Virus record (IMG/VR): IMGVR_UViG_3300042534_000372
Location: 1 to 56,714 of that record
From: a virus
Direction: 5' to 3' (one strand)
DNA length: 56,714 nucleotides
Within the stretch, counting starts at the first letter, position 1. Each line of letters opens with the position of its first letter. The notes beneath the pieces were generated by a model. The model was not told the origin of the DNA. It ran no database searches and was given only the letters and a program-made list of their open reading frames with translations. The position numbers were made by a program, and so were the translations under genes. This document shows positions 12,432-52,401 of this stretch, piece by piece.

Positions 12432-12478
12432 ACGGACCGGATCAAAATTAATTAATATAAACGATTCCAGTATGTTTG

Positions 12479-12549
12479 TGATCTAACGGGAGTCGAACCC
12501 TATCTTTCAGCTTTTCTGGCTGCGTGCTCTCCGTTACACTATTAGATCA
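12479..12549 (-). tRNA. Degenerate tRNA-like element, Phe-like (GAA) anticodon
   Basis: 71 nt with a perfect 7-bp acceptor stem (TGATCTA/TAGATCA), a 3-bp D stem, a 4-bp anticodon stem with loop CAGAAAA, and a T arm with loop TTCGACT but only three paired bases. Position 33 would be A, whereas functional tRNAs carry U, and no CCA is encoded. It looks like a decayed tRNA or a tRNA mimic. A TATATTTG promoter lies upstream and a terminator downstream. Confidence 0.5.
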
Positions 12550-49305: not shown

Positions 49306-49926
49306 ATGAAAAAAGAATTCAAATTACCTAAAGGAGTTGATATTGATCAAATAAATATTGACGTAAAAGGAAACTTATTAACAGTTATCTACAAGGAAGA
49401 AAGCAAACCAATTATTAAAGCTGGTGAGTGGTGGTATCACAGCACCGGAACATTGAATTTAATACTTGAAGTTAATCAGGATAGTCGAATAGCAAAGTGT
49501 ATGCCTATTTATGGCGATGGGATAAATGCATCATTCCACGGATTTGAAACAATGACTCGTAAGGCCGACATGAAAGAAGTTAAAAGTCTTTTGATGGATG
49601 AGGCTGTGAAGAAAGGGTATGATTATGGAACAATTGTTTATGGATTCGTAAATATTGGACAAACTTCTAAACTTAATGATGCTCCTTTTTATTTCGATAA
49701 CGGCGGAATGTATTTAGGTAATGTTTGTATATTTAATTATCACAGTGGCAAATGGGCTGAGATCATCGAAGAGAAGAAAGATTTTTACAGGGTAGTTAAA
49801 TGCAGCCTGAAGGTATTAAAGGTTATATGCGATGGATTGCCTGAAACAGATACTTTATCTAAGGTGATGACCAAACAGAAATGTTACAAATACATATATG
49901 ATAATTGGGATAAACTAAATAAATAA
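49306..49926 (+). CDS. Hypothetical phage protein with RKAD module
   Basis: 206 residues. Beta-rich N-terminus (GNLLTVIYKEESKPIIKAG), then residues 85-105 RKADMKEVKSLLMDEAVKKG, the same module as in the protein at 1966 (RKATPEEEAKLIEAEHANG). Then GMYLGNVCIFNYHSGKWAEI and a helical C-terminus. Last gene before a strong terminator. Function unknown. Confidence 0.7.
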   Translation: MKKEFKLPKGVDIDQINIDVKGNLLTVIYKEESKPIIKAGEWWYHSTGTLNLILEVNQDSRIAKCMPIYGDGINASFHGFETMTRKADMKEVKSLLMDEAVKKGYDYGTIVYGFVNIGQTSKLNDAPFYFDNGGMYLGNVCIFNYHSGKWAEIIEEKKDFYRVVKCSLKVLKVICDGLPETDTLSKVMTKQKCYKYIYDNWDKLNK

Positions 49927-49929
49927 AAC

Positions 49930-49955
49930 AAAACCCTCTTTAATCGGAGGGTTTT
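49930..49955. terminator. Intrinsic terminator closing the first half of the plus-strand block
   Basis: AAAACCCTC (49930-49938) pairs with GAGGGTTTT (49947-49955), 8-base loop, followed by T residues; it also ends transcription on the other strand from the minus-strand trio. Confidence 0.82.
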
Positions 49956-50004
49956 TTCTTTTCAACTGTTCGGTATTTCCGGATAGTTGGATTTTGATAG
50001 ATTA

Positions 50005-50339: not shown

Positions 50340-50591
50340 CTAACTCAACTCACAACTAGTAAGTGCATATTTCATTTTATGAATTAAATCTTGTTTTTTC
50401 AATCCATCCTTACAATGATTATTAATCAACTGCATTAACTCAGTATAAAAATCAGGTTTAATTGTGCTTTTATTTTCACTGAGTTTTGACTCTAACCATT
50501 CAATGTATTTTTGACTACTCGTTTCAAATAATAATTCAACACCTTTAAATTTAGATCTCTTTTCTTGTTCGAATTGTTCTCTGTGATTCAT
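50340..50591 (-). CDS. Hypothetical helical protein
   Basis: 83 residues: MNHREQFEQEKRSKFKGVEL, LFETSSQKYIEWLESKLSEN, and a C-terminus with two Cys-containing helices. First gene of a minus-strand trio embedded in plus-strand genes. Coiled-coil-like in residues 28-45. Unknown. Confidence 0.58.
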   Translation of the reverse strand: MNHREQFEQEKRSKFKGVELLFETSSQKYIEWLESKLSENKSTIKPDFYTELMQLINNHCKDGLKKQDLIHKMKYALTSCELS

Positions 50592-50707
50592 GTTTATTAT
50601 TTTTAGTTTAATTATTTGTATTCAATGTCCTCTATGTGATATATCATTAAAAGAGATTTAAAGATAATACACACTCGATATAATTACATTGATCTAATCA
50701 TATCAGG

Positions 50708-50715
50708 CAAAGTTA
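50708..50715 (-). promoter_or_regulatory. Probable promoter of the minus-strand trio
   Basis: TAACTTTG on the minus strand, matching TAnnTTTG, about 115 bases before the gene at 50591. Just upstream is a direct repeat, CCGGCT-atgtt-CCGGCT on the plus strand. The identical -7 box drives the small RNA at 51062. The 50592-50950 stretch otherwise contains only small hairpins (for example CTTAAAG/CTTTAAG at 50912-50936). Confidence 0.5.
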
Positions 50716-50951
50716 ATACCGGCTATGTTCCGGCTGTTGTACTCTCTAAGCTTACGCTATCACATTGAGAACGGAGTTAAGATTGTGGCTCATTGCTCCG
50801 GATATTTTAACAATTAACTCTATACCATGCCTTTTAACTTATTCGATTTATAGAACATTATTAAACAGGTCTTATCTTTTGTTTTTAGTCTGGCTTAAAT
50901 CTTTACAGGCACTTAAAGAGAATTGATAACTTTAAGCGAATAGAAGGCAAG

Positions 50952-51062
50952 AAAAAATCCTGTTGGCAGACCGTTCAAAACGGGTGAAACATGCCAAACA
51001 GGACTAATATAGATTGAAATAATAATGTCTTTTCTGTAATAGATGTTTCACCTTCTATTCAA
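50952..51062 (-). ncRNA. Small structured RNA A with intrinsic terminator
   Basis: Inferred from a TAACTTTG promoter box at 51075-51068 and a terminator: on the minus strand TCCTGTTTGGCA (51003-50992) pairs with TGCCAACAGGA (50968-50958) around an inner ACCCG/CGGT hairpin, followed by six T (50957-50952). No ORF. The 5' segment GGTGAAACAT (51052-51043) can pair with ATGTTTCACC (50992-50983) inside the terminator arm, and GAATAGAAGG (51060-51051) with CCTTCTATTC (50947-50938) just past it. So two exclusive folds exist, as in attenuators. Confidence 0.62.
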
Positions 51063-51067
51063 TAAGA

Positions 51068-51105
51068 CAAAGTTAATCATTATTAATGTGTTTTACAACA
51101 TGTTT
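51068..51105. promoter_or_regulatory. Shared control region of the divergent small RNAs
   Basis: The minus-strand -7 box TAACTTTG (51075-51068) and the operator TGTTTTACAACATGTTT (51089-51105). The operator contains the TTG that would be the -33 box of RNA A. The plus-strand RNA promoter begins about 30 bases to the right. Confidence 0.65.
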
Positions 51106-51148
51106 AAAGATGTTCTATATTAAAATAATTCTGTGTAGGTTTGTTGTA

Positions 51149-51249
51149 CCGAAAAAATCGATCAAACATTACGAGTATATTCTCCCCTACCAAAAGGAGG
51201 CTCATGATCGGATAATAAGAAAAGCCAGGTCTTCGGATTTGGCTTTTTT
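51149..51249 (+). ncRNA. Small structured RNA B with UUCG terminator
   Basis: Promoter box TAGGTTTG at 51136-51143. The transcript would carry stems CGATC/GATCG (51159-51163 with 51206-51210) and CTCC/GGAG (51182-51185 with 51196-51199). It ends in a perfect terminator, AAGCCAGGTC-TTCG-GATTTGGCTT (51222-51245, two G-U pairs) with a T run to 51249. A 76-codon frame across it is rejected because it crosses the terminator. Confidence 0.65.
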
Positions 51250-51250
51250 A

Positions 51251-51282
51251 TTTGCTATTGTAATATATAAGGTGTATATTTG
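51251..51282 (+). promoter_or_regulatory. Promoter of the second half of the plus-strand block
   Basis: TTTG (51251-51254), 20-base spacer, TATATTTG (51275-51282), then the gene at 51313. Confidence 0.72.
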
Positions 51283-51312
51283 TGTAGTATTAATTAAAAC
51301 TAAAACAATAAC

Positions 51313-51459
51313 ATGAGAAAACTAATAGACATTGAAGGAGAATTAGACAAAGAAGGTTCTTTAGTCAATAAGCTTAATGTAATGGCTGCGAAGAAAGGTA
51401 AGTATTTAAAAAACTACATCGAGGATGTTTTGAAAGATCATGTTGATAAAAGTAAGTAG
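51313..51459 (+). CDS. Small RHH-like protein
   Basis: 48 residues: NKLNVMAAKKGKYLKNYIED, VLKDHVDKSK looks like a ribbon-helix-helix DNA-binding domain (strand, helix, turn, helix). An antitoxin-like or Arc-like regulator is possible; no toxin gene is adjacent. Confidence 0.55.
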   Translation: MRKLIDIEGELDKEGSLVNKLNVMAAKKGKYLKNYIEDVLKDHVDKSK

Positions 51460-51526
51460 TTGTTAACGGATTACGGCTATGAAGCGTTGCCGATTAAAAC
51501 GCTATAACTTTCAAATTTAAACTAAG

Positions 51527-52167: not shown

Positions 52168-52401
52168 ATGAGCAAAAATAACAAAAAAGATACTGAGCAA
52201 TGCACTTTACATAGTGTTATAGAGAGTGCCTTGCCATGCCCTTTTTGTGGTGGTACTAACTTAGCTTTTATTAGTGATGCTGATGGAGATAGAGACGTTG
52301 AATTTATAGTTTGCATGGCTGATAACTGCCTTGCAGATGGTAGAATAGGTAAAAATAAAGAGGATGCTTTAAATAAGTGGAACAAAAGGCATTCTCTATA
52401 A
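52168..52401 (+). CDS. Lar-like restriction-alleviation family protein
   Basis: 77 residues. SALPCPFCGGTNLAFISDAD, a second CxxxxC (VCMADNCLADG), then KNKEDALNKWNKRH. The PCPFCG-x-x, C...C, AI/AL-x-x-WN-x-R pattern is the Lar family, small zinc proteins found in phages and linked to evasion of type I restriction. The first 20 residues belong to the linker-like part of the modular family (TLHSVIES). Confidence 0.75.
   Translation: MSKNNKKDTEQCTLHSVIESALPCPFCGGTNLAFISDADGDRDVEFIVCMADNCLADGRIGKNKEDALNKWNKRHSL

Follow-up and report, generated by a model that had tools for sequence, protein, structure and literature searches.

Gene organization of the locus

The window, i.e., the whole stretch of DNA analysed in this study, comprises 56,714 nt of the IMG/VR virus record IMGVR_UViG_3300042534_000372, a 56.7-kb sequence of a phage of Bacteroidota bacteria. 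The major capsid protein shares 58-59% identity with those of the Polaribacter phages Freya and Danklef, and the similarity of this protein and of the terminase places the phage near the Forsetiviridae, which are flavobacterial phages (PMC8776804). The larger genes are mostly on the minus strand up to approximately 46.7 kb, after which many small plus-strand genes follow. The RNA locus described here is located inside a 720-base gap that separates an 83-aa minus-strand gene from a 48-aa plus-strand gene (Table 1). No gene was recognised in this gap (50592-51312) by comparison with Pfam and PHROGs, in agreement with the original prediction of approximately 700 gene-less bases. A search for relatives of the 83-aa gene found none, and the 48-aa gene has no relative in the phage collection searched. 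Terminator-like sites are more frequent in the RNA stretch than expected by chance (5 found vs 1.2 expected), and the fold of a possible further structured RNA at 50640-50860 is at chance level (z = -0.7).

Outside the gap, positions 52168-52401 encode a Lar-like restriction alleviation protein (PF14354), approximately 1.1 kb from the minus-strand RNA. The 54 bp between two small genes at 51463-51516 are 96% identical to a gene junction of the Cellulophaga phage phi17:1; this stretch is absent from the plasmids searched and from 148 Bacteroidota genomes. Two consecutive terminator-like hairpins (49930-49991) lie behind the gene at 49306-49926, and a tRNA-Phe gene at 12478-12548 is closely preceded by a consensus Bacteroidota promoter (12628-12598).

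Table 1. Features of the RNA locus and its flanks (window positions)
Feature	Position	Strand	Sequence	Remarks
83-aa gene	50340-50591	-		Next same-strand gene downstream of the minus RNA
Flanking complement	50938-50947	-	CCTTCTATTC	Just past the terminator; perfect complement of the RNA 5' end (51060-51051)
Minus small RNA	50952-51063	-		Approximately 112 nt; predicted start A51063 to end of T-run
P2 3' arm	50959-50968	-	TGCCAACAGG	Fold; followed by T-run 50957-50952
P3 hairpin	50971-50983	-	CCGTTTTGAACGG	Inside the terminator loop
P1 3' arm	50983-50992	-	ATGTTTCACC	5' part of the terminator loop; A50992 common to P2
P2 (terminator stem) 5' arm	50992-51002	-	CCTGTTTGGCA	Fold
P1 5' arm	51043-51052	-	GGTGAAACAT	Complement search
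Minus RNA promoter	51068-51098	-	TTG (-33), 20-nt spacer, TAACTTTG (-7)	Bacteroidota type
Imperfect palindrome	51097-51114		AACATGTTTAAAGATGTT	8/9 pairs; beside the minus -33 element; putative operator
Candidate plus RNA	51148-51249	+		Weakly supported
Plus intrinsic terminator	51218-51249	+		UUCG loop; 14 pairs, T-run
Promoter of 51313 gene	51252-51282	+	TTG-N20-TATATTTG	Distinct from the candidate plus unit
48-aa gene	51313-51459	+		First of plus-strand operon

Promoter, predicted start and terminator of the minus RNA

Promoters of Bacteroidota have the form TTTG/TAnnTTTG, in which G almost never occupies the two n positions (PMC6847099). The promoter of the minus RNA has no mismatch to TTG-N20-TAnnTTTG and also fits TAHHTTTG, and of the two transcription units that had been proposed for the gap, only this one has a proper -33/-7 promoter. 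The boxes named in the original prediction are sigma-70-like, which is the wrong type for a Bacteroidota phage, and such boxes occur in the sequence at chance density (21 found vs 19.8 expected). The start at A51063 was assigned from the spacing to the -7 box. The terminator was found as predicted, with the stem arms CCTGTTTGGCA and TGCCAACAGG followed by six T (50957-50952). The segment folds better than its shuffled versions (z = -3.0), and no Rfam 15 family matches it above the curated threshold.

Predicted pseudoknot in the terminator hairpin

A stretch near the 5' end of the minus RNA (51052-51043) has a perfect 10-bp complement within the terminator hairpin loop, at 50992-50983. This pairing (P1), which had been overlooked in the original prediction, was detected in the window alone before any homologue was known. 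P1, the terminator stem (P2) and the hairpin in the terminator loop (P3) are together predicted to form an H-type pseudoknot in which P1 adjoins P2; simple folding, which cannot draw pseudoknots, returns only P2 and P3. When the 5' part was shuffled, the observed P1 length was matched in 10 of 20,000 cases (0.05%) for the window and in 57 of 20,000 (0.3%) for the homologue described below. The linker between P1 and P2 folds no better than shuffled sequences in either phage (z = +0.55 and +0.14).

The RNA is further flanked by a 10-bp inverted repeat (50938-50947 / 51051-51060), which is reached by 0.1% of shuffles in the window. Its counterpart in the homologue has 6 bp only, which 10% of shuffles reach. 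The downstream copy, CCTTCTATTC, could possibly serve as one strand of a putative closing helix in the read-through RNA.

Homologue in a second phage

Relatives were sought in 18 virus records, all of which have a capsid gene related to that of the window, and one of them (IMGVR_UViG_3300031539_000464, hereafter G002) contains a match that covers exactly the minus RNA (68% identity, E = 2.2e-5). The homologue is preceded by TTTG-N19-TACATTTG, the counterpart of the minus promoter in the window, and the start region TCTTATTNAAT is identical in the two RNAs, the lengths of which are approximately 112 nt (window) and 116 nt (G002). The promoter, the three helices and the terminator recur in both phages, whereas the linker has diverged.

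P1 is formed by GTGAAACA/TGTTTCAC in the window and by GTGATGCA/TGCATCAC in G002, P2 by CCTG-T-TGGCA/TGCCA-A-CAGG and CCTG-A-TGGCA/TGCCA-T-CAGG, and P3 by CCGT/ACGG and CCGA/TCGG (G002 hairpin CCGA-GAAA-TCGG), respectively. Over the 22 core pairs, which were delimited by eye for this count, the eight changed bases amount to four compensatory double changes over P1, P2 and P3 with no broken pair, two of the changes being in P1 and one in P2; as only two sequences are compared, each change counts as one event. A rough estimate of the chance occurrence of four such changes is 5e-7. The outermost P1 pair of the window (G-C), which is outside the core, is lost in G002. Because the helices are kept by matched mutations in the second phage, the minus RNA is very probably real. 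None of its reading frames is conserved between the window and G002, and the RNA is therefore regarded as non-coding.

A host-type promoter, a close intrinsic terminator and compensatory changes in one homologue, i.e., the features by which a small-RNA gene may be recognised, are thus all present in the minus unit. On these sequence features, it is with high confidence a genuine small-RNA gene with a structured product, and it is likely to be an independent transcript.

Distribution of the minus RNA

The RNA in G002 is adjoined by genes unlike those beside the RNA in the window. G003, another of the phages compared, has 96% identity with G002 across the flank that the two share, yet other genes replace the RNA and its neighbour, a gene for a DUF3850 protein; the two phages thus differ by a swapped cassette (L035 1-954 compared with G003). 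Downstream of the G002 RNA, the non-coding stretch contains a G-rich tract, GGGGGTTGGGGGTTG (L027, approximately 497-517).

A covariance model of the 3' domain of the minus RNA (R1) found the RNA in none of the 17 other relatives among the 18 records, and three isolated flavobacterial phages, the Polaribacter phages Freya_1 and Danklef_1 and the Cellulophaga phage phi17:1, gave no match to the minus RNA. Nothing convincing was found by R1 in three partly overlapping samples (phylum, class and order) of up to 395 Bacteroidota genomes, in which one weak match proved to be an ordinary terminator without a P1 arm. When patterns of the minus RNA, both more and less stringent, were run over the whole viral contig collection, G002 alone was recovered among otherwise unrelated matches. 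A scan of genomes gave two matches, neither of which has the structure; the L068 match is inside an open reading frame.

With G002 as the sole homologue, and with the RNA absent from the near-identical G003 and from the other relatives, the minus RNA is, as judged from the collections searched, rare and accessory. We propose that it is accessory cargo that is gained and lost between closely related phages.

The plus-strand unit and the region between the units

The original prediction placed an operator at 51089-51105, from which two co-regulated small RNAs would diverge. Only 1 of 8 pairs forms at that position, and thus there is no inverted repeat there. An imperfect palindrome is found at 51097-51114; it is reached by 3.2% of shuffles, and 11 palindromes as good occur in the window, so that it is only marginally unusual. 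The gap also contains TGTTTAANNATGTTCTATA twice, without a mismatch and in opposite orientations, at 51101-51119 (+) and 50849-50867 (-). This promoter-like repeat is possibly a regulator site. Copies in four other viral contigs were judged to be due to chance, since none has similar flanks.

The UUCG-capped terminator of the plus unit is present, as had been noted. The plus segment as a whole folds better than shuffled sequences (z = -3.5), whereas without the terminator the value falls to chance level (z = -1.1), which attributes the signal to the terminator alone. The sole promoter candidate on this side is TTC-N20-TAGGTTTG at 51113-51143, which has G at both disfavoured positions of the -7 box, and the plus strand has no TAHHTTTG from 50513 to 51275. 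Searches and patterns applied to phages and viral contigs gave no convincing homologue of the plus RNA; four pattern matches were rejected because they do not have the context of the plus unit. A divergent coding frame, cut by the contig end, is found instead at this site of G002, next to the minus RNA promoter, and has its own promoter TTTG-N19-TACCTTTG.

These observations bear on the idea that two divergent small RNAs are co-regulated from one operator. Two terminators do face away from each other, and the marginal palindrome is next to the -33 box of the minus unit; nevertheless, the disfavoured plus promoter, a plus RNA that has neither a homologue nor a fold beyond its terminator, and the coding frame found instead in G002 make such an arrangement improbable. 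As for the two phage-encoded non-coding RNAs originally envisaged, the minus one is upheld by its promoter, its terminator and the stems conserved in G002 through four compensatory pairs, and the plus one, for which neither a host-type promoter nor a homologue was found, is not. A reading of the plus unit as part of a small protein gene of 76 codons (ATG at 51086) appears highly improbable: the open frame spans 51086-51316, but it takes in the plus terminator and the promoter of the next gene, and no relative was found by tblastn or in PHROGs. The plus terminator directly precedes the promoter of the 51313 gene. The unit probably amounts to no more than this terminator, placed in front of the next operon and perhaps simply insulating it.

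Possible function of the minus RNA

We infer from the sequence that the minus RNA is transcribed, that its P1 and P2 form at the same time, and that it has a function. The reading that we favour, with some reservation, is that of a stand-alone, pseudoknotted, trans-acting phage sRNA gene of approximately 112 nt. Transcription by the host RNA polymerase (Bacteroidota sigma-A) would begin at A51063 and terminate at the T-run ending at 50952. The resulting RNA would consist of a 5' half that is poorly structured and A/U-rich and a 3' pseudoknot domain; in the latter, the terminator hairpin P2 encloses both P3 and the loop segment engaged with the 5' end in P1. The pseudoknot may shield the 3' end, bind a protein, or both, and target mRNAs would be paired by the linker that separates P1 from P2, which is open and variable. 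This role of the linker is put forward tentatively; in a comparison with the phage genome for base-pairing targets, the minus RNA has no perfect match of more than 12 nt, an unremarkable length, and the present analysis indicates no protein partner or target.

The main rival of a trans-acting sRNA is a cis-acting attenuator, in which an extended P1 captures the 5' arm of the terminator and allows read-through into the downstream gene, and P2 stops the polymerase. In both phages, the next same-strand gene is approximately 330-360 nt downstream of the RNA with nothing recognised between. The extended P1, which uses the 5' arm of P2, is as stable as P2 in G002 (-26.6 vs -24.5 kcal/mol), so that P1 and P2 might alternate. 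The core P1 and P2, however, share one base at most and do not compete, and the gap is long for an element of this kind. The downstream gene of the window also has its own -7-like box (50715-50708). The attenuator is regarded as the weaker explanation because the P1 extension is not kept in the window, where it is weak, and because the downstream genes of the two phages, the 83-aa orphan and the gene for the DUF3850 protein, are unrelated. We therefore consider attenuation unlikely and lean towards action in trans rather than in cis. Somewhat less likely still, and argued by analogy, is that the RNA is a decoy or anti-defence RNA, the pseudoknot of which either imitates an RNA of the host or, by binding, blocks one of the host's defence or processing proteins. 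A cassette that is swapped between near-identical phages and a structure that has been conserved as the linker diverged would suit a protein ligand of this kind, and RNA anti-CRISPRs provide a precedent (PMC10651486), but no known anti-defence gene is directly adjacent, although the Lar-like gene is approximately 1.1 kb away.

Beyond the trans-acting sRNA itself, a more speculative and rather doubtful extension is a new accessory family of phage RNAs, in which the terminator-hairpin pseudoknot would be a protein-binding or anti-defence module, the linker would set the specificity, and the base might be closed by the 10-bp complement in the read-through RNA.

Comparison with known small RNAs

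ToxI-type RNA antitoxins of type III toxin-antitoxin systems are small pseudoknotted RNAs that occur as tandem repeats beside a toxin gene. The minus RNA is likewise small and predicted to be pseudoknotted, but no tandem repeat was found at the locus and the adjacent genes tested match no toxin family. RNA anti-CRISPRs (Racrs) mimic the repeats of host CRISPRs (PMC10651486), and the minus RNA resembles them as a small, free-standing, accessory element in a viral genome. The Rfp-series independent sRNAs of Flavobacterium psychrophilum are stand-alone transcripts of a Bacteroidota species (PMC9723704) and resemble the minus unit in standing alone in a setting in which the main promoters carry a TAnnTTTG box. 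Unlike the minus RNA, the Rfp sRNAs are host-encoded; R1 gave nothing convincing in the Bacteroidota genomes that were sampled.

Among the phage sRNAs covered in the sections of a review considered here are OOP and PreS of lambda and VpdS of VP882 (PMC12197685). The minus RNA is similar to these regulatory sRNAs, for which phage or host transcripts are the presumed targets, in being short and phage-encoded, but no sequence relation to them is apparent. Neither a pseudoknot fused to the terminator nor a Bacteroidota promoter is described for the phage sRNAs in those sections, from which we understand that phage sRNAs of known role belong mainly to proteobacterial phages (PMC12197685). The R1 model can be used to seek further members. 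The minus RNA would offer a concrete and testable case of a compact RNA, with a covarying pseudoknot in its own terminator, that is exchanged as accessory cargo of Bacteroidota phages.
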